DNA of 11,009 bases, from positions 30,657 to 41,665 of the forward strand of contig PKXB01000137.1 in the NCBI GenBank assembly GCA_003133345.1. Reading direction: 5' to 3'. This document shows positions 536 through 11,009 of the stretch, piece after piece. The notes under the pieces are model-generated. The model was not told the origin of the DNA. It worked only from the letters and a program-made list of their open reading frames with translations, and searched no databases. This DNA comes from Hyphomicrobiales bacterium (lineage in GTDB: Bacteria > Pseudomonadota > Alphaproteobacteria > Rhizobiales > Xanthobacteraceae). Each line of letters begins with the position of its first letter. The first letter of the stretch is position 1. A program made the position numbers and the translations under genes.

Positions 536-555
536 TAATGCCACGTGTAGTGACC
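526..555 (+). promoter_or_regulatory. 10-bp inverted repeat spanning the integrase start codon
   Basis: GGTCACTACA (526-535) and TGTAGTGACC (546-555) are perfect reverse complements around a 10-nt loop that contains the ATG at 538-540. In RNA the start codon would sit in the loop of a strong hairpin; in DNA this is a palindromic operator. No convincing Shine-Dalgarno sequence lies at normal spacing upstream of 538. The function (translational masking, autorepression or integrase arm binding) is inferred. Confidence 0.6.
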
Positions 556-2229
556 AAGCTGACGCCAAAACAAACGGGTGGGTATAGCGCTCGCAAGCGC
601 ATCCCAGCGGACGTTCGCGAGGAGTATTCGCGCCAGTTCGACAAAAGCTCAGAGGAATGGTTCACCACCGCCAATGACGTATCGTTCGCGACCGCCAAGA
701 CCCTATTTCATGAGTGGAGCGCGGAGATTGGGAGCCGCTTTGCGAGCATCAGGGCGATGCGCAAGGGGGGCGGTCTAGCGCTTACACGCAAGCAGGCGCT
801 TGCCCTCGCGGGCAAATGGTACGGCTGGTTTGTAAAGCGCCACGAAGACGCGCCGGGTGATCCTGCACGCTGGTGGTCACGGTGGTCAGGTCTGCTGGAT
901 GATCTTGAGGAACTTGCGCCAACGGCTGTGAGGGCAAGCGCTGATACCATAGCGGTCTGGAATTGGCTCAATAGTGCTGAAGCGCGCCCGCGTGTTCGCC
1001 CCATAATCGCGGATGAAGCTCAGACGGCACAGTTCCTTGCCAGCGAAGGGCTTGTGCTGAGCAATGAAGCGCGGGACCTATTCCTGGACATGGTGGAGGA
1101 GGAATTTCTCGCGGCTGTGAAACTGCTGGAGCGTCGCGCGAAGCGTGACTACAGCCCTGACACGCGCATACAGACGTTTCCAAAGTTTGAACTAGATGTG
1201 CCTTTGAGCTCAGAGGGTCTAAGCCCTTGGCAGCTATTTGAAGCGTGGGTGGAGAAACGCAAGCCCGCACCAGCGACAGTCACCCGCTGGCGTGGTGTGT
1301 TCCTCGACTTGGACAAACACTTTGCAGGGCGCGCGGCAGGTTCGCTGAAAGACGATGAAGCGCACGCTTGGGCTACACAATTGGTAACACCTAAGCGCAC
1401 AGCAGCCACCGTAGCCGGGGTGTGGCTTAATGCAGCACACACCGTGTGGATATGGGCGGTAGAGCAACGGAAAGTGCGCACTAATGCGTTCGCCTCAGTG
1501 AAAATAACTATCCCCAAGAGTACACGCACACGAGATACGAAAACGTTCACACCCGCCGAGGCGCGCACGATCCTCAAAGCGTCGTTAGCTATTGGTGACC
1601 CAGGCAAGTCGCCTTCAGCAGCCGTGCGCCGCTGGGTGCCGTGGCTATGCTCTTACACAGGTGCGCGGGCAGGAGAGATAACACAACTACGCGGTAAGGA
1701 CGTTTTGCACCAGGATGGTGTGCCCGCCATTCGAGTAACGCCAGAAGCCGGTACCGTAAAAACTCGGGAGCCGCGCACCATTCCGCTGCACGAGCATTTG
1801 ATTGCACAGGGCTTCCTCAAGTTCGCAAAGTCGAAAGGCGAAGGGCCGCTGTTTTACAATGCTAAGGGCATCAAACAATCGGATGATCCGACGCACCCTT
1901 CACGCCCACGTGCTGTCACTGCCAGAGTTGATCTTGCAGCGTGGGTACGTAGCGTTGGGATTACTGACACTGCTGTAAGCCCAAATCACGCTTGGCGACA
2001 TACGTTCAAGCAGATTGCTGAGCGTTGCGGAATTTCGGAGAGAGTGTCGGACTACATCACAGGGCACGCACCGGCGACGGTAAGCCGTGGCTATGGCGCA
2101 CCAACGCTGCAAGATATGGCTGAAGTTCTAAAGAAGTTTCCACGTTACGAGCTGACACAAGAGGGGGATGAGGATGGCGAGGAAGGCAAAGCGAAACGGA
2201 AGAAGCAAAGCGGTAAGGCGCACTCGTAA
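538..2229 (+). CDS. Tyrosine-type site-specific integrase
   Basis: Catalyses integration and excision of the element by strand exchange between short att cores. The 563 residues carry the complete catalytic set: R377 in TGARAGE, K408 in TVKTRE, H484 and R487 in HAWRH, H510 in TGHA, and nucleophile Y519 in SRGYG. Residues about 226-330 fit a core-binding SAM-like domain. The long N-terminal region (1-220) is the kind found in large alphaproteobacterial integrases, starting with a basic PKQTGGYSARKRIP segment. The C-terminus ends in an acidic then basic tail (541-563). The frame is open back to a stop at 493-495, with no other usable start, so ATG 538 is chosen. The gene sits just inside the left att core and reads into the element. 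Its start codon lies in a hairpin loop, and its 3' end overlaps the next gene. Confidence 0.95.
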   Translation: MPRVVTKLTPKQTGGYSARKRIPADVREEYSRQFDKSSEEWFTTANDVSFATAKTLFHEWSAEIGSRFASIRAMRKGGGLALTRKQALALAGKWYGWFVKRHEDAPGDPARWWSRWSGLLDDLEELAPTAVRASADTIAVWNWLNSAEARPRVRPIIADEAQTAQFLASEGLVLSNEARDLFLDMVEEEFLAAVKLLERRAKRDYSPDTRIQTFPKFELDVPLSSEGLSPWQLFEAWVEKRKPAPATVTRWRGVFLDLDKHFAGRAAGSLKDDEAHAWATQLVTPKRTAATVAGVWLNAAHTVWIWAVEQRKVRTNAFASVKITIPKSTRTRDTKTFTPAEARTILKASLAIGDPGKSPSAAVRRWVPWLCSYTGARAGEITQLRGKDVLHQDGVPAIRVTPEAGTVKTREPRTIPLHEHLIAQGFLKFAKSKGEGPLFYNAKGIKQSDDPTHPSRPRAVTARVDLAAWVRSVGITDTAVSPNHAWRHTFKQIAERCGISERVSDYITGHAPATVSRGYGAPTLQDMAEVLKKFPRYELTQEGDEDGEEGKAKRKKQSGKAHS

Positions 2230-2548
2230 GTTCATCCGCTACACGTCCGATGAACAACCTACGCCAACCCTCTGGGATGCTCGTACTGCGCTCACGATGC
2301 TGGTGATCAACAGCCGCCGTATTGGTAAGCTTGGGGCGCGCTGCCCTGTGACTGACGTTGATGCGGGACGGGCCTTTGCCAACATGGGTCTAATTCAGCG
2401 TGCCGATGGCCAACAGCCTGAGCAACTAACGATGGCTGAAGAGGCGTTCCTGATAGCGGATGATTTGGCTGCGCTGGTTGATACGCTCGCACCGCTGCTG
2501 GGGCTGGATGCTAGCGTGATATTCGAGGCTTTCCACGATAGCGTTTGA
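2174..2548 (+). CDS. Unknown protein with basic N-terminus, overlapping the integrase gene
   Basis: A 124-aa product that I do not recognise. It overlaps the last 56 bp of int in another frame. ATG 2174 is preferred over ATG 2168 because the purine run at 2161-2167 gives a Shine-Dalgarno spacing of about 6 nt for 2174 and none for 2168. The arrangement suggests translational coupling to the integrase. The first 20 residues hold about 10 Lys/Arg, which suggests nucleic-acid binding; the rest is mildly acidic and likely helical (EEAFLIADDLAALVDTLAPL, residues 85-104). Candidate roles, by position and size only, are recombination directionality factor or regulator. In the overlap the integrase tail is also basic, because the DNA there is purine-rich in both frames. 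The gene is followed directly by the first structured non-coding block. Confidence 0.65.
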   Translation: MARKAKRNGRSKAVRRTRKFIRYTSDEQPTPTLWDARTALTMLVINSRRIGKLGARCPVTDVDAGRAFANMGLIQRADGQQPEQLTMAEEAFLIADDLAALVDTLAPLLGLDASVIFEAFHDSV

Positions 2549-2763
2549 CTGCGGCTAGGGTTGGGGTGGTCCCCAGGGGCCACAGAGCGACTACAGTTTG
2601 ACTCAGGGAAGGGTCTGGGTGCGTCCCCTGAACCACCCTGCAGTCCTGGGCCTAATGCGCTGCTTAAAGCCTCTCCGTGAGTCTCCCAGCGCGTTTCTGG
2701 AGGGCACCGACCAGTTTTAAGTTTATATGCGGCGGGGACAGGCGGCTCCATAAGAGACACCCA

Positions 2764-2809
2764 AGTTTAATGCGCTGAAAGCCCGTATATATCTTTAGCG
2801 CTTTAAGCT
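2764..2809 (+). other. Long hairpin inside the first non-coding block
   Basis: 2764-2770 pairs with 2803-2809 (one T-G wobble), then a T-T mismatch, GCGCT 2772-2776 with AGCGC 2797-2801, a single bulged G2777, and AAAG 2778-2781 with CTTT 2793-2796. That makes about 16 pairs closing an 11-nt loop rich in TA. No T-run follows on either strand, so it is not an obvious intrinsic terminator. Confidence 0.65.
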
Positions 2810-2919
2810 CATTCCCCACGTGGAGAGGCTGGAGGCACCGTAAGGAACCTCAGGGGAGCCCCAGATGGATTAGCTGGCGTAAAGTTCCACCAACCCGGCC
2901 ATCACCATTCATCGGGTAA

Positions 2920-2995
2920 CTTACGTCAACTCAGGCCCGCTTCCGAATTGCAGTGAGTATCGAGACACAACGGAAGCAGCCTGAGCGAGCGTAAG
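2920..2995 (+). repeat. 76-bp hairpin repeat, copy A
   Basis: Matches 3065-3140 at 74 of 76 positions. Each copy is a nested inverted repeat: CTTACG/CGTAAG outermost, then CTCAGG/CCTGAG, then GCTTCCG/CGGAAGC, closing a 25-nt loop (2946-2970). The two differences (A2952/T3097 and A2965/G3110) both lie in the loop, so the stem is unchanged between copies. Both copies are followed within a few bases by CTTAAG and TCCAC. Confidence 0.9.
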
Positions 2996-3064
2996 CCGTG
3001 CTTAAGCGTCCACCAATCAGTGTACACATTGTGGATTTACACTTGGTGATGAGACCTAAGGCCG

Positions 3065-3140
3065 CTTACGTCAACTCAGGCCCGCTTCCGAATTGCTGTG
3101 AGTATCGAGGCACAACGGAAGCAGCCTGAGCGAGCGTAAG
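3065..3140 (+). repeat. 76-bp hairpin repeat, copy B
   Basis: Second copy, 145 bp downstream of copy A, with all 38 stem bases identical. Its loop, like that of copy A, contains GAGTATCG (3100-3107; copy A 2955-2962). That sequence is perfectly complementary to CGATACTC at 3215-3222, a possible long-range pairing if this is RNA. Confidence 0.9.
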
Positions 3141-3307
3141 ATAGTCTTAAGTCCACACTGAGTGGGGGATCATCGTTGATGGTGTTCAGGGTGTATGGCT
3201 CAAGCCAGCCCAAGCGATACTCCCGACAGCTTAAGATGAGGGGAGCCAGACTTGGGTGAGCTTAGGTCAAACTTAAGTCACCACCACACTGCGTGTTAAT
3301 GGCGACA

Positions 3308-5281
3308 TCAAGCCGCAACGCTTAAGCCCACCACCGTCCGCTTGAAGCAACTCCCACCGCGTCCCTTCTGTGAAACATAAGTCCACCCCAGACCAGCGAT
3401 GGCCTGCTGAAGCTGACTGTTGTTCTTCAGGTTCTTCCACACGCCGCGCCATTCGACCTTCATCAGTTGGCTGATGACGCCTGTGCCTAGCGGGTTGGGA
3501 AGCGCTGCCATGCTCAAGATTTTCAAGAGAGCATCAGCGTGCGTCTGCCTGTCATCGTGTTTCTGCTGCCCGCTTGTGACCACTTGCGCACCAGGAAAGA
3601 TGCACCCCTTGTTGGCGAGCAGCCGCTTTAGACTTCCAGACATAACAAGCTTTTGTTTTCCACAGTGACCGTGAGCATCAAAACACCGACCACGACCACG
3701 CAGCGCCATCTGCTTTGTCCACCTGAGCAGGTGTCCCTCGCTTAAGGCGTCCACTGCGTGCGCCTTGGTGTTGATGGTGTTCATCTTGGCGAGTGCGCCT
3801 TCGGACGACTTATGCTGTTGCAAGCCTTGGGCAGTGGCGATGATGGTGCGTCGTGGCAGGTGGTACTCATCGAATAGGAACACCACGTCAGCATCTCTCC
3901 ATGAGTTGACGCCAACACCTGTTCCCCAATGCGTTGAACACAAAAGCCGTCCGTCCAGTTTCCACCCGTAGTCTTGTGTGTACGTTTCCTTATGGGAGAA
4001 CCTTTGGTCCCCTTTGGGCCAAGCTGGCACGTCCTCATTCTTAAACAGCGCAAGCTTGCAAACCACCAGTCCACGTTCCCCGGGCTTCATGTTCTGTTTA
4101 ATTGTCTCCAGCATCCAGTCAACATAGGCGCGACGGTTCTTTGCACTCGTGAGGTAACTTGAGAGCCGCGATTTGGTGTGGGGCGGAACGTGGACGATGC
4201 TTAGGTTATCGTACCGGGCTTGAGGCACCGCAGCGTGTGTGCGCCACGAGCAAAGCTGGGACACACCGTCAATGTCTGCGGTGGCATCCAGCAGCATCAT
4301 GCCGGGGTCCAATAGCAGGTTGGTTTCGTACCCAACGAAGCGACAGCTACTGCCAACAGCCCTGTTGACGAACGCATAGCCGTTCACGAGCGCTTTAGCG
4401 AAACCAAAGACAGCCCCAACGCTTTCGCTGGCTTTGTTGTGTCTCACGTAATCATGGGCCGCAGGGGTGGTGAACCACCGCAAGCTTTGGTCAAACACCC
4501 ACGGCGCAGTTGTGGTCGGCTTATCCAAGCTTGCCTTGGTGAAGCTCTTATCGTGCATGAAATCGACCAGCGCGCCTATGTGCGGGCCAATGTGATCGGC
4601 GTGGTCTGTATCCTTCTCGATAAGCTCACGCACGGCTTGGGCTGCTGACAACTCCACATCGAATACCGTCACCTCTTCGGGGCGTTCGTCCACTACGGTG
4701 AGCGCACGTTGGAACGTGTGACCATCGCGTGTCACGTTGCGCGCAATGCTTCCGCGTTTGCCCATGAAAAAGTTGTGAGTGACGATGGCCACCGGGTAGC
4801 GGCTCAGGTCGCCCACAGCGAAGCGTGCAGCAGGCTTGAGGACCTTGGTTGGTTGCTTGCATTTCACGTCATGGTCTGTGGTCCATACTGCAACCTTTCC
4901 CGGCATTTGCTTCTCAAGGTCGCGGTACATTTGGTCAGCCTTATCCATCTGATCGACAAGGAAGAGACAGCCGTAGGGCGCGGCTGGGCTAGCTTCAGCA
5001 AGTTTCGTGACGGCCACCATCAGCGCCATGCTGAAGGAGGTTTTGCCACCGCCAACAGGCGCTGACACTACGTGAAGGCGGGTCGGGGCCTCGGTGCCCA
5101 CTTCAGCATTACAGAAGTCACCAAGGGCGCTGTAGCCCGCCTCAAACACGCTGTTGCCGATCTGTGCGTAGAAGGCGGTGGTTAGGTCGACAGCTGATCC
5201 GCGTAGCTCGTTGATCCGGCGCACGGCGGTGTCGAATGCTTCACGCAGCGTGTCGCGGCTGGGGAGCGTAGGCATTTGCAT
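3308..5281 (-). CDS. SF2-like DEAD/DEAH helicase/ATPase, probable replication protein of the element
   Basis: A 657-aa protein with helicase-like motifs in order: Walker A SAPVGGGKTS (73-82, K80), VTHNF (168-172), Walker B-like VVDERPEE (196-203, D198/E199), LLDATADI (330-337) like motif III, VVCKLALF (406-413), a motif V-like stretch from G453 to P476, and QMALRGRGR (524-532) like the arginine-finger motif VI. From about residue 580 a short C-terminal region (LGWTYVSQKGRGG, 631-643) looks like a winged helix. Such proteins unwind nucleic acid with ATP; in a small element without a polymerase, replication initiation or unwinding is the likely role (inference). ATG 5281 has GGAG 5 nt upstream. 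It is the last gene of a minus-strand set, and its 3' end abuts the structured block. Walker B reads DERP rather than DEAD/DEAH. Confidence 0.75.
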   Translation of the reverse strand: MQMPTLPSRDTLREAFDTAVRRINELRGSAVDLTTAFYAQIGNSVFEAGYSALGDFCNAEVGTEAPTRLHVVSAPVGGGKTSFSMALMVAVTKLAEASPAAPYGCLFLVDQMDKADQMYRDLEKQMPGKVAVWTTDHDVKCKQPTKVLKPAARFAVGDLSRYPVAIVTHNFFMGKRGSIARNVTRDGHTFQRALTVVDERPEEVTVFDVELSAAQAVRELIEKDTDHADHIGPHIGALVDFMHDKSFTKASLDKPTTTAPWVFDQSLRWFTTPAAHDYVRHNKASESVGAVFGFAKALVNGYAFVNRAVGSSCRFVGYETNLLLDPGMMLLDATADIDGVSQLCSWRTHAAVPQARYDNLSIVHVPPHTKSRLSSYLTSAKNRRAYVDWMLETIKQNMKPGERGLVVCKLALFKNEDVPAWPKGDQRFSHKETYTQDYGWKLDGRLLCSTHWGTGVGVNSWRDADVVFLFDEYHLPRRTIIATAQGLQQHKSSEGALAKMNTINTKAHAVDALSEGHLLRWTKQMALRGRGRCFDAHGHCGKQKLVMSGSLKRLLANKGCIFPGAQVVTSGQQKHDDRQTHADALLKILSMAALPNPLGTGVISQLMKVEWRGVWKNLKNNSQLQQAIAGLGWTYVSQKGRGGSCFKRTVVGLSVAA

Positions 5282-5399: not shown

Positions 5400-5796
5400 A
5401 CTGTTTGTCCCGTGGTGTGCCGTCCGTCCGTCCACCCGTAGCGGGGCACGTGCAGAGTGAGCCTTCGATCAAAGACGAATTAAGATGATTGCCTCTGCAT
5501 TGTCCTGGTGGAGCAAAGACAGGGCAGGGCCTTCGATACAGCTTCAAGTCCGCCTTATTGACCAACAGAGGGTTAGCAGTGGGTTGGGGCGTATCCGTGT
5601 GTTGCTTGGGGAACCAAATTAGAAGCTTCAGGTAAAACTCGTAGGTTCTACCCCATATTGTTTTGCGCTCACGGATTTCGTCGGGCCATGTGCCGCCCGA
5701 AAGTTCTCGCGCCATCGCGTCCACCAGATTGACAACCTCTTGACTGTGTCCCGGGTGGTTGCGTTCGGTGGGGAACAGCCATGTCTTCTTTTGCAT
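5398..5796 (-). CDS. Unknown small protein (132 aa)
   Basis: I recognise no family. It lies between the 842-aa gene and the helicase gene on the same strand. ATG 5796 is chosen rather than the GTG at 5928, because 5829-5919 is occupied by strong hairpins and because GAGAAC stands 7 nt before ATG 5796, as it also does near the starts of the two neighbouring genes. The N-terminal half (1-66) looks like a folded domain with a possible helix (VVNLVDAMARELSGG, 21-35) and an aromatic segment (YEFYLKLLIWF, 52-62). The second half is Pro-rich with four Cys (91, 100, 115, 117). The Cys pattern could bind metal but is not a clear finger. Coding status is moderately certain. Confidence 0.5.
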   Translation of the reverse strand: MQKKTWLFPTERNHPGHSQEVVNLVDAMARELSGGTWPDEIRERKTIWGRTYEFYLKLLIWFPKQHTDTPQPTANPLLVNKADLKLYRRPCPVFAPPGQCRGNHLNSSLIEGSLCTCPATGGRTDGTPRDKQ

Positions 5797-5828
5797 CCTG
5801 TGTGTTCTCTGTGTTTGTGAATGTAGGT

Positions 5829-5919
5829 CTGCTCTCGCCCCGCTCGTGGTTGCGAGCAAAGGCCCGCGTGAGCAGAAGCGAGAGCAGTAGCAGTAAGCAG
5901 CGGAGTGCCTATTCTCCGC
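5829..5919 (-). promoter_or_regulatory. Structured intergenic spacer between the 842-aa and 132-aa genes
   Basis: CTGCTCTCGC (5829-5838) and GCGAGAGCAG (5878-5887) form a perfect 10-bp inverted repeat enclosing GCTCG (5842-5846)/CGAGC (5853-5857). Next to it GCGGAG (5900-5905) pairs with CTCCGC (5914-5919). Neither hairpin has a T-run, so a processing site, mRNA-stabilising element or regulator-binding site is as likely as termination. The structure argues against coding upstream of ATG 5796. Confidence 0.5.
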
Positions 5920-5928
5920 TACGTCCAC

Positions 5929-8457
5929 CTACTTCGTAATTCGTGAGGGGTTCCATACGGACTTGGCCCAAGTTGGCCCTAAGTACGCACGGATGGTGTT
6001 AGCCACCGCTGGGGGCAGTGTGCTGGTTACATCATTGATGTGAGCCGCCAGCGCCTCTCGTGAGCGCACCTGCCGCACCTTATCGAGTGCAGCGCCAAGC
6101 TCCACGTTATCTGACGCAAAGCGTGGGTCACCGGAGAGTTGCATCAGCCGGTCACGAATGAGCGCCTGTCGCTGTGCCGTGCTATCGTAATAGCGGCCGG
6201 CTACAACATCAGGAGCATTAATGGCACGCTTGAACTGCTCAGTAGCTTGGTGAGCAATCGCGTAGTCCGCAGGGCCAACTTTCGTGTGCAACAGTGTCGA
6301 AGGCACGGGTACTTCGTCCACCGTACTGTCAGCCCCAGCTTTAGCACCAGACAGCTTGCGCATGACCTGTGCAGCAGCCACGCCGTTCTTGACGCTGCCC
6401 ATTGGCGTAGAAGGCGGGACCTGCTCATTAGACGGCTGAGGTGTGACCTTGTTAAGCGCTGCTGCTCCGTTGATGCCTTGAGCAACTAACGGATCAACGG
6501 TGGGTACTACGGGCTTGGCGAGTGGGCTTTGGAGTACACTGTTGCCAGGATTGGACAACATGCCCGCGAAGTCTGATGGCAGCGTAAGTGGCGCATTAGG
6601 ACCAGACGTAGCCGCAAGCTTGCGCAGCATCGGCATAGCCTGTGTGGCCATCTGCTTCAGCGCTTGAGATGAGGGCTGAGGCGTCGGTGTCTGCGTCCAC
6701 GGACCATTGCCCATCTGTGCTGCGATAGCAGCGGGGGAAACAGCAATCTTAGGGCCGGTCGGAGACGTTGGCATCGGAACGTTCGGCTGTGGCTGAGCCT
6801 GCACAGGCCCCGAGATAGGCGTACGCACAACACCACCGTCATTACCAAATCTGTTCACGAAGCGCTGCGCTGGGGCATGTGCACCTGTGATGCTGTCAAT
6901 TCCTTTGGCAGCAGCTGCACCGGCCAAGGCTACTCCAATCGTAGCTGGGCTTGCGGCGATCAGGTGTGCGCCTAGGTGTTCAACAGCAAGCGCGGCCAAA
7001 ACCGATCTAGCTGTATTGTGACCAGATAAGCCTGTGAGCTTGAGCGCGGCGGGTGTAATCCCACCAGTGAACTTACCATCGCTGTAGTTGCCACTGGCCT
7101 TCACAAGTTGCGAGACATGCGCCTCACTCACGAGGTTCATTACGGCTGGGCCAGCAGGATCACCCTGCAAAGCAGACAACAGCGTGGAGTAATCCTTGAC
7201 AGTCGGAAGCTTGCCCTTCTGCACACTGTCGATAATGTTCTGCGCGTCGGTTGGCAGCGGAGTGGTAATGCTTTTGACGGCATCGCCCAACTCACTCTTG
7301 ACGGCAGACGACGCCTTATCGACGGCATCGTAGCCAACTGAGGTGTCACCTAAGCTTCGACCACCGGCAGCATCCGTGACGCGGTTGGCGAAATTAGTTG
7401 AGGCGTTCTCAAGCGCGCCCGTGAACGCGTGATACTTCACCGCATCAATCGCGCCACCAGCAGCATGCGGAGCGGCTAGAACGCCAGCACCCAAGCCTTG
7501 CGTGATGCCCTGCTCAGCGACCTGCTGCGGATCAACCGTGCCTGTGTCGATAAGCTGTCCCGCCGCATTAGCGGTGGCACCAGCCGCAGCTTCAGTGCCA
7601 GCGGTGGTCGCCATGTTTCCCACTGTGCTGGCGATACCCTTGTTTAAAGGCTGACCAATAGGTAGGAGGCGACGGAAGCCAACGCCTTGGATGGCAGTCT
7701 GCGCCGCGACTTTCACGAGTGCGTGCTGCTTGTCAGCATCGTTCGGTTCGGCAGTCGCATCGCCTGTACGTGCGTACGCAGCAGCTTTGGCTTCTGGGCC
7801 AAACATACGCCACGCCATTGAGCCTAAGCCCGCAGCGAGGCCTACGCCTGGGCCACCGACTGCACCAGCGGTGCGCCCGACAGCTAAGTCTTGAACAACA
7901 CCCGGGGCAGCTTCCGCAAGCTTCTGTGGGACGTTTTTCCAGTTGTAGCTCGTAGGGTCGTACCAATGGCTGTCAGGGCTGAGGATCGGAGGCGACTGAT
8001 AGTTTTTCGGGGCAATGGCATCGGCGGTTTTCTGCATCGAGCCGTCAGTGCCAAGCACCTGCTGCGAGGACTGAGAGTCCCCGCGTACAAGGTCAGACAG
8101 ACCTTGCTGGAGGCCCGCGGCTACGCCAGTCGAAGGGGCGTTCTGCTTATGCCACCACTGTGCGCCTCGTAGCGCGGTGGCTTCGTCGGCGGCTTCAATG
8201 TCAAGCTTCTGACCAGTGGGTGTCTGGATGGTGAACACATGCGTGGCAGAAGGTGAAGGCTGTGGCGGTTGTTGCGCTAGATGGTCCATAATTTCAGTGG
8301 GAGAATAGCCAGCATCCTGTGCGGCTTTGAATTGAGGGTCTCCTTGCTGAAGGTGATAGTCAACGATTTCGGGGTCGGTGTAGCCGTGCCAGCGGGCAGC
8401 GGTGTATGCGTTGGGGGCCGCTATTGGAATTGGAGCGGCTGAATTGTCGATAGGCAT
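5929..8457 (-). CDS. Large Ala/Gly/Pro-rich protein resembling phage internal/DNA-ejection proteins
   Basis: An 842-aa protein with no enzymatic motif that I can see. The N-terminus has two related copies of a short motif 25 residues apart, GYTDPEIVDYHLQQ (25-38) and GYSPTEIMDHLAQQ (50-63). A small domain follows (HVFTIQTPTGQKLDIEA, 73-89, then DEATALRGAQ) of a type I associate with the N-termini of phage virion proteins. Residues about 186-216, 276-300, 318-336 and 485-520 are Ala/Gly-rich, weakly hydrophobic helices. Residues 545-600 and 670-690 are Pro/Gln-rich linkers, and the C-terminal 110 residues are helical and charged. Internal or ejection proteins of podovirus-like phages have this layout, so delivery through the host envelope is a reasonable guess (inference). 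No signal peptide is seen. No capsid, portal or terminase accompanies it. Start ATG 8457 has only a weak GAGAAC 9 nt upstream. Confidence 0.6.
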   Translation of the reverse strand: MPIDNSAAPIPIAAPNAYTAARWHGYTDPEIVDYHLQQGDPQFKAAQDAGYSPTEIMDHLAQQPPQPSPSATHVFTIQTPTGQKLDIEAADEATALRGAQWWHKQNAPSTGVAAGLQQGLSDLVRGDSQSSQQVLGTDGSMQKTADAIAPKNYQSPPILSPDSHWYDPTSYNWKNVPQKLAEAAPGVVQDLAVGRTAGAVGGPGVGLAAGLGSMAWRMFGPEAKAAAYARTGDATAEPNDADKQHALVKVAAQTAIQGVGFRRLLPIGQPLNKGIASTVGNMATTAGTEAAAGATANAAGQLIDTGTVDPQQVAEQGITQGLGAGVLAAPHAAGGAIDAVKYHAFTGALENASTNFANRVTDAAGGRSLGDTSVGYDAVDKASSAVKSELGDAVKSITTPLPTDAQNIIDSVQKGKLPTVKDYSTLLSALQGDPAGPAVMNLVSEAHVSQLVKASGNYSDGKFTGGITPAALKLTGLSGHNTARSVLAALAVEHLGAHLIAASPATIGVALAGAAAAKGIDSITGAHAPAQRFVNRFGNDGGVVRTPISGPVQAQPQPNVPMPTSPTGPKIAVSPAAIAAQMGNGPWTQTPTPQPSSQALKQMATQAMPMLRKLAATSGPNAPLTLPSDFAGMLSNPGNSVLQSPLAKPVVPTVDPLVAQGINGAAALNKVTPQPSNEQVPPSTPMGSVKNGVAAAQVMRKLSGAKAGADSTVDEVPVPSTLLHTKVGPADYAIAHQATEQFKRAINAPDVVAGRYYDSTAQRQALIRDRLMQLSGDPRFASDNVELGAALDKVRQVRSREALAAHINDVTSTLPPAVANTIRAYLGPTWAKSVWNPSRITK

Positions 8458-8484
8458 TTATTTTGAGTTCTCGGTAGGTGGGTG

Positions 8485-8510
8485 AAAACTGCCGTCGCGT
8501 CAGACGGCAG
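8485..8510 (-). terminator. Hairpin with short T-run upstream of the 842-aa gene
   Basis: CTGCCGTC (8489-8496) and GACGGCAG (8503-8510) form a perfect 8-bp stem with a 6-nt loop. On the minus strand it is followed by TTTT (complement of 8485-8488). It lies about 30 bp before ATG 8457, so it would stop, or attenuate, minus-strand transcripts coming through the module array before they enter the 842-aa gene. The T-run is short. Confidence 0.45.
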
Positions 8511-8559
8511 AGGGTTTGCAACTCAGGTCGCGTACGAAAGCGAAAGCTGAGTGCGAATA

Positions 8560-8951
8560 GGGTCCATCAGGGGACCCTTGGTCTATACGTGGCCTTAGAA
8601 GTTGGAAGTCGTTGGCCGTACACATATTCCGACTGAATTAGAGCCTCAGCCCTGCTGCTGGGTGAAAATGGGTCCATCAGGGGGCCCTCTAGCTGTACGG
8701 GCAACGCTGGTGGGGTTAAGTCTCTAATCCGACACACGTTCGGTACGATTAGAGCCAACTTCAGTGTCCATCGTTGGGACCGCTCCTTGTGTTGCTCTCT
8801 CTATACCGGTCCTTAAAAGCTGGAAGTCGTTGGTGTTGGTAGAGAACCACTCAAACTAGGCCCGACCCGGCCCTATCCGGATGGGGTCCATCTGGGGACC
8901 CTTGGGCTATACCGGCGTTGCTCAGCTCGTAGCCCGTTGAAACCATTCAAC
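8560..8951. repeat. Array of diverged ~110-bp modules headed by GGGTCC hairpins
   Basis: Module heads start at 8560, 8670, 8764 (degenerate) and 8884. Three heads contain GGGTCCATCAGGGGACCC or a variant (GGGCCC at 8682-8687, ATCTGG at 8890-8895), each a 6-bp hairpin. Exactly 5 bp later comes CTATAC or CTGTAC. A 33-bp segment (8583-8615) recurs at 8801-8833 with 28 identities. ATTAGAGCC recurs at 8639 and 8748. Other stems are 8722-8729/8747-8754 (8 bp), 8904-8909/8930-8935 and 8936-8941/8946-8951. In the second module the head pairs only by a T-G wobble, which favours plus-strand RNA. Function unknown. Confidence 0.6.
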
Positions 8952-9208
8952 TCAGGTCGATTTAGGCCAGCTTTTGTCACATTTGAGGGTGGTCAAAAGG
9001 GGACCCAAGAGGACCCAAGTTTTCACGGACCACCACGCCCGTATTAGCCGAACAACAACAACGGTCTTTAGTCCCCTTCCGTGAAGCGTTCCAAATAGAA
9101 ATCGGGGGATTGTCATGGTCAGAGGGGACCCATTGCGCCGCGCGTGAAGTGGCGCGATAAATTCGTCTCAACGCAGTGCAAATGAAGGCACATGGCCGAG
9201 AGGCAAAA
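8952..9208. other. Remainder of the second non-coding block, with GGGACCC half-motifs
   Basis: No credible gene is seen. GGTGGTC (8988-8994) and GACCACC (9028-9034) are a 7-bp inverted repeat enclosing a tandem of GGACCCAAG (9001-9009 and 9011-9019). Another GGGGACCC lies at about 9124-9131. GCGCC/GGCGC (9135-9139/9151-9155) forms a hairpin upstream of the lipoprotein start. GGGTGGTC at 8987-8994 also occurs in the first block at 2564-2571, likewise facing a GACCACC-type partner. CAACTCAGG is shared too (8519, 8948, 2928, 3073). Confidence 0.5.
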
Positions 9209-9541
9209 ATGCGACTTGCTTTGGTTGTTATTCTGGCATCAGCAGCAGTCCTTGCCAGCTGCAAGACCCAAGAAGAACGTCTGAATGAACTGATGGAAGC
9301 GGACGCGGTAGCGTGCAAGGCAATGTCACAAATCCCTTACGAGACGTGCCTACAGCAGCGCATGCAGTACCGTGTTCTTGGCGCACAGATGCAGGCTACC
9401 CAAGGTGCGGGCATGGGGCCTGCAATGCAGAACGCGGGTGCAGCCTTGCAGTCGATCAACCCACCAGTGGCGGCCCCGCCGCCTATGATGCAACGACCGA
9501 TCCAATGCAACCGGATCGGCAACACGATGCAGTGCTTCTAA
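9209..9541 (+). CDS. Small lipoprotein of unknown role
   Basis: A 110-aa secreted lipoprotein: a hydrophobic signal segment at residues 3-16 and a lipobox LASC with the lipidated cysteine at C18, so signal peptidase II processing and membrane anchoring are expected. The mature part has a charged N-terminal segment, a Gln/Met/Ala-rich middle, a Pro-rich stretch (PPVAAPPPMM) and a C-terminal CNRIGNTMQC that may form a disulfide. ATG 9209 has GAGAGG (9198-9203) 5 nt upstream, better than the in-frame GTG 9176 or ATG 9182, which would put charged residues before the signal. It is the only plus-strand gene in the right half. It could act in superinfection exclusion, lysis or envelope modification (inference from element context only). 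Confidence 0.75.
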   Translation: MRLALVVILASAAVLASCKTQEERLNELMEADAVACKAMSQIPYETCLQQRMQYRVLGAQMQATQGAGMGPAMQNAGAALQSINPPVAAPPPMMQRPIQCNRIGNTMQCF

Positions 9542-9590: not shown

Positions 9591-10262
9591 TTATGCTCTC
9601 GCAAGCACATTGCGCACAGTCATCGCGTGCCACCGGCCACCGCGCGACGTTGAAATCCCACGGGCGTTCAGGGCAGTAGCTACGGCCCGCAGTGTCTTTG
9701 CACCTGAGTGCTGCACTTCACGAATGATTGGCAGCACGTTGCCCGCGTGACGGTCTGCCAGCGACTTGATGGTGGCTACTGCAATCTCTCTGGCCTCTGT
9801 CAGCTTAGGCCCGCCTAGCTTCACGCCCCGCGCTTTAGCGGCGGTGAGGGCAGCTTTAGTTCTGCTGCTGATCATCGCCCGCTCTTTCTCGGCCAAGGCG
9901 GCGAACAGATGCAGGATGAACGGGTCAACGTCTGATCCCAACTCCACGACCAGAAACGGCACGCGGTGGGCCATCAGGCCGGATATGAAATGAACGTCAC
10001 GGCTGAGGCGGTCTAGCTTGGCGACCGCAACCGGGCAGCGGCGGCGGCGAGCTTGCGCTAGGGCCTCAGCAAGCTGCGGGCGACGGTCTAGGGCATCAGC
10101 GCCCTTGCCCGTTTCCACCTCCACCAGCACCGAAACAAGCTCGTAGCCTTCCGTCTCCGCGAACCTGGAGAGGGCTTCGCGCTGAGCTTCTATGCCCAGC
10201 CCTGAGCGGCCCTGCATCGTTGTGGAGACCCTGACGTACCCAATAAGCGGCTTGCGAGACAT
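9591..10262 (-). CDS. Small serine recombinase (resolvase/invertase family)
   Basis: A 223-aa recombinase that cuts and rejoins DNA through a serine-phosphodiester intermediate. Seen: YVRVST (9-14) with nucleophile S13 and R11, KLDRLSRD (82-89), the family helix around [15 protein letters not shown] (125-139), and a C-terminal DNA-binding part ([16 protein letters not shown], 190-205, followed by [14 protein letters not shown]). The size fits small resolvases rather than large serine integrases, so resolution of circular multimers or DNA inversion is likelier than integration. ATG 10262 has GGAGG 5 nt upstream. The gene lies at the right end, convergent with the lipoprotein gene, and its promoter region holds a resolvase-like inverted repeat. 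The catalytic residues look intact. Confidence 0.93.
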
Positions 10263-10511: not shown

Positions 10512-10525
10512 CGCCATGATCCGCC
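10512..10525. other. Putative attR core (right end of element)
   Basis: CGCCATGATCCGCC, partner of 436-449 with one mismatch. It ends 21 bp before the methyltransferase ATG, so insertion has replaced the natural upstream sequence of that gene beyond about -35. Rejoining the flanks here restores a short divergent gloB/methyltransferase intergenic region. Confidence 0.45.
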
Positions 10526-10546: not shown

Positions 10547-11009
10547 ATGTCGATCGATGTCGTGGACCTGCGCAATTTCTACGGCCAGCGCCTGGGCGTC
10601 GTGGCCCGCCGCTTCGTCGGCCGCGGCATTCGCGGACTGTGGAAGGATACCGCCGGCCAGCGCGTGCTCGGCGTCGGCTATGCCACGCCCTATCTCGGCC
10701 TGTTCCGCGAGGAGGCCGAACGCTGCCTCGCCTTCATGCCGGCCGGGCAGGGCGTGGTGAAATGGCCGACCACGCGGCCGGCGCTTTCGGCGCTGGTGGA
10801 CGAAAACGAGCTGCCGCTGCCCGACTCGGCGGTCGATCGCGTGATCCTGGTGCACGCGCTGGAAATGACCAACGATCCGGCCGCGCTGCTGCGCGAGGTC
10901 TGGCGCGTGCTGGCGTCGGGCGGGCGACTGCTGGTGGTGGTGCCGAACCGGCGCGGCCTGTGGGCGCGCATGGACACCACGCCGTTCGGCCATGGCCGGC
11001 CCTATTCGC
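10547..11009 (+). CDS. Class I SAM-dependent methyltransferase, 5' part, cut by window edge
   Basis: Rossmann-fold methyltransferase using S-adenosylmethionine; the substrate is not deducible. The first 154 residues are present. Seen: motif I VLGVGYATPYLG (40-51) in the position of the glycine-rich SAM loop, an acidic-then-hydrophobic motif LPLPDSAVDRVILVHALE (89-106), and the family segment REVWRVLASGGRLLVVVPNR (116-135). The ATG at 10547 is the first in this frame, and the frame stays open to the window end. Codons are strongly GC-ending, as in gloB and unlike the element. This is chromosomal flank. Because the element ends about 20 bp upstream, expression probably now depends on sequence within the element's right end (inference). 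Open frames on other strands here are shadows. Confidence 0.9.
   Translation, partial: MSIDVVDLRNFYGQRLGVVARRFVGRGIRGLWKDTAGQRVLGVGYATPYLGLFREEAERCLAFMPAGQGVVKWPTTRPALSALVDENELPLPDSAVDRVILVHALEMTNDPAALLREVWRVLASGGRLLVVVPNRRGLWARMDTTPFGHGRPYS

Follow-up and report, generated by a model that had tools for sequence, protein, structure and literature searches.

What is the role of a gene-free, hairpin-filled stretch of 759 nucleotides that lies between the integrase and helicase genes of a small integrated element? The question is raised by positions 2549-3307 of the window, i.e. of the whole stretch of 11,009 nucleotides from a Hyphomicrobiales bacterium analysed here, which an earlier note had described as gene-free, tiled by helices and possibly a large structured RNA read from the plus strand. 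The block is bounded by two stop codons, that of the gene for a 126-aa protein (2548) and that of the convergent helicase gene (3308). It is indeed free of genes, the longest ORF lying wholly inside it—among ORFs of at least 40 aa—having just 51 aa (2664-2819, minus strand); a 121-aa ORF of the minus strand enters it from 2395 and runs antisense to the gene for the 126-aa protein. The helices are equally real in number: with a pair span of at most 200 nt, a probability of at least 0.7 and at least 4 bp each, 22 were counted on the plus strand (324 of the 759 bases) and 21 on the minus strand (342 of the 759).

The element that carries the block measures approximately 10 kb. It is integrated, the host flanks being joined without it in four of the five related loci (L169, L170, L171 and L173), and in the fifth one (L172) the right flank alone matches, near the end of its contig. 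An imperfect direct repeat, CGCCATGRTCCGCC, read by eye at 436-449 and 10512-10525 near the element ends, is a candidate attachment core; an exact-match scan between the element ends revealed no direct repeat of 9 nt or longer. The repeat adjoins a host gene that looks, by eye, methyltransferase-like. The open reading frames together with domain and family searches define a tyrosine integrase of 563 aa (538-2229, plus strand), whose end is overlapped by the gene for the 126-aa protein (2168-2548, plus strand; 7 homologues among 29 candidates scored). Beyond the block there follow the gene for a 657-aa superfamily-2 helicase (3308-5281, minus strand), a 176-aa ORF and, likewise on the minus strand and upstream of the helicase, the gene for an 842-aa protein (5929-8457) with no function assigned and nine matched proteins. 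The latter may resemble phage internal virion proteins, and AGYSDxEI-like repeats are present near the start of three of the eight aligned proteins of this type, the window's own included. A 121-aa ORF (9176-9541, plus strand) and a serine recombinase gene (9591-10262, minus strand) complete the set. Among the element proteins the domain and family searches recognised neither a primase nor a known initiator domain, and a keyword search of the literature, where a sequence as such is not searchable, yielded no description recognisable as this element.

Two further places in the element are rich in hairpins. A second gene-free block, at 8458-9175, contains a GGGTCC..GGACCC hairpin three times (8554, 8664 and 8878) and a 34-nt repeat twice (8582 and 8800), its part 8458-8800 reaching a z-score of -3.5 on the minus strand; no significant match to this block was found in the eight relative loci compared. 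The other one, at 5656-6083, lies where the 176-aa ORF meets the 842-aa one and exhibits a z-score of -4.3 on the minus strand.

The helicase belongs to a large family, with 427 proteins at E-values of 1e-3 or lower among the 7,999 candidates scored; one of the 120 homologues listed originates from a Xanthobacteraceae bacterium, while most are unnamed. The family has no match in PHROGs, NCBIfam or the PDB sequences, and in Pfam the 49 members searched gave only weak matches, to ResIII (20 of the 49) and DEAD (15 of the 49). The AlphaFold model of the window's protein (mean pLDDT 89.9, pTM 0.86) is closest in the PDB to DinG (6fwr; E 1.6e-13, TM 0.49 by query) and XPD (3crw; E 1.1e-11, TM 0.45), and in a viral structure library it is matched by both DNA and RNA helicases. 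DinG and XPD act on DNA. The fold closest to these two, with which the weak ResIII and DEAD profile matches agree, thus points to a DNA helicase as the predicted activity of the 657-aa protein.

Concerning the stability of the block as a whole, the stretch 2549-3347 folds beyond chance on both strands (z -5.9 plus, -5.7 minus), none of 20 dinucleotide shuffles being as good on either of them. The excess is, however, confined to the right part: 2880-3307 has z-scores of -6.3 (plus) and -6.1 (minus), equalled by none of 100 shuffles, whereas 2549-2879 is near chance (z -1.0 plus, -1.6 minus; equalled by 19 and 5 of 100 shuffles, respectively). The two left-hand stems singled out in the earlier note are therefore located in the near-chance half. 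At a scale of 428 nt, with 24 shuffles for each, the stretch 2874-3301 tops all 50 stretches of the window on the plus (z -5.3) as well as on the minus strand (z -6.1), and at a scale of 160 nt (60 shuffles) the strongest run lies within 2881-3360, with weaker spots at 2561-2720 (minus, z -2.6), 5761-5920 (minus, z -3.6), 8401-8640 (down to z -5.2, minus) and, already in host DNA, 10641-10800 (plus, z -3.7). A separate count found 13 stems in the block, 30 mononucleotide shuffles having 8.8 on average; single stems were unexceptional in it, the best scoring 13.0 and the shuffled best 16.5.

The right part contains a series of hairpins. A three-tier hairpin of 76 nt, overlooked in the earlier note, is duplicated with 97% identity (2920-2995 and 3065-3140), with another hairpin (3001-3060) between the two copies and one with the palindromic CTTAAG at both of its feet (3146-3236) behind them. 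The 76-nt copies differ at two positions only and, since both are near the apical loop, offer no covariation in the stems. A bulged hairpin at 3255-3282, previously given 9 pairs, is present with its single bulge when folded alone but has 12 pairs; when the whole block is folded as plus strand, it gives way to the pairing of 3196-3205 with 3260-3269. In the left half, the nested helices at 2564-2638 are present when that segment is folded alone (26 pairs), and the hairpin at 2764-2809 is present too, albeit with 15 pairs by folding instead of the 16 drawn by hand. The plus-strand fold also shows a domain at 2657-2841, closed by long-range helices (2657-2665 with 2833-2841 and 2668-2676 with 2822-2830).

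The claim that wobble pairs favour the plus strand does not hold. Folded in isolation (energies in kcal/mol, plus/minus), the hairpins 2764-2809 (-15.1/-9.8), 3255-3282 (-11.7/-7.8) and 3146-3236 (-30.8/-24.4) are stabler on the plus strand, whereas 2920-2995 (-31.7/-36.5), 3001-3060 (-13.3/-17.4) and 3065-3140 (-37.2/-38.1) are stabler on the minus strand, 2564-2638 being about even (-31.9/-30.3). Among stems defined without regard to strand, the window has 11 G-T and 13 A-C oppositions, and the relative described below has 7 of each, a weak test as chance stems are included. Neither strand of the block is favoured.

A counterpart was found in a diverged IMG/VR locus (L006), whose helicase is 51% identical to that of the window and in which, as in the window, an 842-aa-like protein lies upstream of the helicase and a convergent integrase downstream. 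The gap in the same convergent position (5850-6425) folds strongly on both strands (z -6.5 plus, -8.6 minus), the signal being uneven here as well: 5850-6180 reaches z -11.1 (plus) and -10.5 (minus), and 6181-6425 only 0.0 (plus) and -3.4 (minus). A 92-aa ORF (6411-6689, minus strand) stands between the gap and the integrase and, as judged by eye only, resembles the 126-aa protein. An ORF of 100 aa (5980-6282, minus strand) overlaps the motif described next and is tentatively taken as a product of chance. A sub-threshold Rfam match in this locus, Xist_exon1 with 20.5 bits (gathering score 50), is also taken as chance.

An exact word of 20 nt is common to both blocks (2765-2784 in the window, 6000-6019 in L006); its local score is 40, the best of 300 shuffles being 31. 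Its end forms the first 16 bases of one copy of a motif, AATGCRCTG followed within 4 nt by AAAGCC, that occurs twice in each block (2654 and 2769 in the window; 6004 and 6118 in L006), at a spacing of 115 and 114 nt, respectively, and nowhere else in either the window or L006 on either strand. Every copy is then followed by an inverted partner; in the window, copy A reads AATGCGCTG-CTT-AAAGCC ... CAGCGCGTT (2654-2695, plus strand) and copy B, lying within the hairpin 2764-2809, AATGCGCTGAAAGCCC ... AGCGCTTT (2769-2804, plus strand). The motif is on the strand of the integrase in the window and on that of the helicase in L006, so that no single gene fixes its direction. Of the stem cells in the four copies, 94% pair, one pair reading GC, GC, GU and AU, and the AAAGCC behind the 5' arm is kept in all four. 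Covariation in this motif, the only alignable one, was at the level of chance, the observed score being reached by 248 of 500 shuffles. Overall, 23 shared 8-mers between the two blocks are unexceptional (shuffled mean 12.4, sd 4.9, maximum 29 in 300). An alignment of the motif with the opposite strand of L006 was set aside, only the stems matching and the local score of 29 falling within the shuffled range.

A covariance model built from the L006 copies only (R3) matches copy B of the window (E 7.7e-4 in 126 kb) but misses copy A, and matches copy B on the opposite strand as well (E 0.028); in a control comprising the window and 79 of the 119 pattern-picked loci (excluding L039, which is on the same contig as L006), the window came first, although narrowly (23.7 versus 22.0 bits). 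The model R1, built from all four copies, recovers these four by construction and also weakly matches the same places on the opposite strand; in 60 genomes it hit one, the window's own.

DNA similarity to the window block or to the L006 block was absent from phages and plasmids, and among 100 relatives similarity to the former was seen in the own genome only. No helicase relatives were found in phages (also when repeated with the homologue P0117 as query), in plasmids (query P0117) or in genome contigs; in viral contigs there were none with a single sequence and two loci with an alignment. Whole genomes with a helicase match, the own one included, amounted to 4 of 397, 7 of 391, 2 of 43, 1 of 385 and 5 of 323 in overlapping draws; apart from the own genome, every match was distant and several were very weak. 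In viral contigs, the 15-mer ATGCRCTGAAAGCCC occurs in at least 120 stretches; when seven window proteins were compared with these by tblastn, only L039 was related among those listed, and the others look like chance. A hairpin-pattern search returned 14 viral and 14 genome stretches, in which no relative is encoded by any of the 27 new loci apart from L039, a pattern derived from the loop of the 76-nt hairpin had no hit in viral contigs, and the integrase queries led to no new loci. In six distant helicase relatives (L007, L015, L016, L017, L018 and L019; 27-35% identical), inspection by eye downstream of the helicase showed no such block—in L016 and L019 there is a tRNA gene instead—and the model R1 matched neither these six nor L020. 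The block is thus not general to the wider helicase family. Three homologues, P0002 of the helicase, P0122 of the 842-aa protein and P0133 of the 126-aa protein, all have 14,540 bases as the length of their longest contig, suggestive of a single element with the same gene set. Closer helicase relatives, among them P0001 (89%), P0002 (77%) and P0004 to P0028, are represented by protein sequences only.

With these results, a structured RNA and a region acting in cis as DNA have to be weighed against each other. The density of helices and the similar block in one relative fit the RNA proposed in the earlier note; a role as DNA would account for the observations about equally well. We slightly favour the block being a cis-acting control region of the 10-kb element, most likely a site of replication or mobilisation, at a probability of roughly 0.4, because of its position behind the helicase gene as in SaPI and SCCmec elements, the absence of a strand preference and the inversion of the motif between the two elements. 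The block adjoins the helicase stop codon in both elements, each block has its two direct motif copies with inverted partners and has them nowhere else, the motif is oriented independently of any one gene, the CTTAAG at the hairpin feet is palindromic, and the helicase model is closest to DinG and XPD. The strong folding of both strands is what inverted repeats in DNA would give, although near-perfect RNA hairpins would fold on both strands too, and G-T and A-C oppositions are nearly equal in number. Several features do not suit such a site. An origin downstream of a helicase gene is expected to hold an AT-rich stretch for melting, and the highest A+T content is 57% in the block (40-nt windows every 20 nt) and 53% in that of L006; long hairpins with internal loops exceed what an iteron origin needs; and both the element proteins, with their want of a recognised primase or initiator domain, and the six distant relatives without the block speak against it.

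Close behind comes a large structured RNA encoded by the block, which would exist on its own or form the structured 3' end of the transcript of the helicase or the integrase, and would serve as a folded scaffold or regulator. It would account for the z-scores (about -6 here, -6.5 and -8.6 in L006), for hairpins that bear internal loops and are not simple palindromes, and for the AAAGCC kept in all four copies while one stem pair changes; moreover, in phage ICP1 and in its satellite PLE the transcripts that are most abundant are predicted to be noncoding (PMC7567579). Against it are the missing strand preference, the covariation no better than in shuffles of four copies, the strand of the motif that differs relative to the genes, and the repeated hairpin feet, which permit alternative pairing. 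Promoter-like sites and, in 2300-3500, intrinsic-terminator-like sites were not found, a weak test with 0.5 and 1.1 expected by chance. As anticipated in the earlier note, no known RNA family was recognised: Rfam, GOLLD and ROOL included, gave no match at the gathering score in the window or L006, and at a loose cut-off (E up to 5, 2500-3360) only eiav_FSE (13.4 bits, gathering 40). It is less likely than not that the block represents a hitherto undescribed class of large structured RNAs, with no relationship to GOLLD or ROOL, located between the integrase and helicase of a family of small integrative elements and having the repeated AATGCRCTG-AAAGCC hairpin as its conserved core. Quite improbable, finally, are ordinary 3'-end structures, i.e. 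terminators or mRNA protection between convergent genes multiplied by local duplication: the convergent position in both elements, the plain recent duplication of 76 nt and the hairpins in other gaps of the element (5656-6083 and 8458-8800) agree with them, but 759 nt far exceeds the length of a terminator, none of the terminator-like sites sought is there, and the motif that both blocks contain twice is suggestive of a specific function.

Among known systems, SaPIs have their origins immediately behind the rep helicase gene, and the SCCmec helicase Cch2 binds an intergenic region downstream of its own gene, which has direct and inverted repeats, the direct ones being needed for binding and the inverted ones not (PMC7581432). 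The block, too, carries repeats, is free of genes and immediately follows the helicase gene of its element, the likeness lying in position and repeats, with no AT-rich stretch here; the L006 gap has the same position, although a 100-aa ORF overlaps the motif there. Unlike SaPI Rep and Cch2, which carry DUF927 or Primase_Cterm-type domains (PMC7581432), the helicase here is DinG/XPD-like. With GOLLD, many representatives of which exceed 800 nt, and ROOL the block has in common a length of the same order, dense helices and, as far as the source covers it, the phage or prophage setting (PMC12286853); it differs from both in having neither a covariance-model match nor a strand preference, and the window contains no tRNA gene. 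The PLE satellite of Vibrio is again an integrase-bearing element with noncoding DNA, which holds an abundant noncoding RNA (the IIR transcript) and the replication origin, in a noncoding origin region of about 3 kb according to the parts describing it (PMC7567579, PMC7145576); the comparison is by description, not by gene sequence, and the present element is not a known satellite. PLE shows that an origin and an abundant RNA may coexist in noncoding parts of one element, and a structured RNA remains nearly as likely here. STAXI, a repeated pseudoknot for which the authors, in the portion concerned, leave RNA or single-stranded DNA open, is similar as a tandemly repeated structured motif near DNA-handling genes (PMC2864571); the block has no Rfam match to its model. 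Further candidates for comparison would be integron attC sites and the intergenic hairpins of inovirus type.

Should the block be a cis-acting replication or mobilisation region, the element would excise, the helicase or a partner would be loaded at the repeats of the block, and one strand would be exposed, with the hairpins as possible landing or priming sites. The helicase family concerned is large, yet lies outside PHROGs, NCBIfam and the PDB sequences. If the block is an RNA, it would add a further large RNA class with a function testable in a 10-kb element; if it is the origin of the helicase, it would show how a DinG/XPD-like helicase starts the replication of a mobile element.
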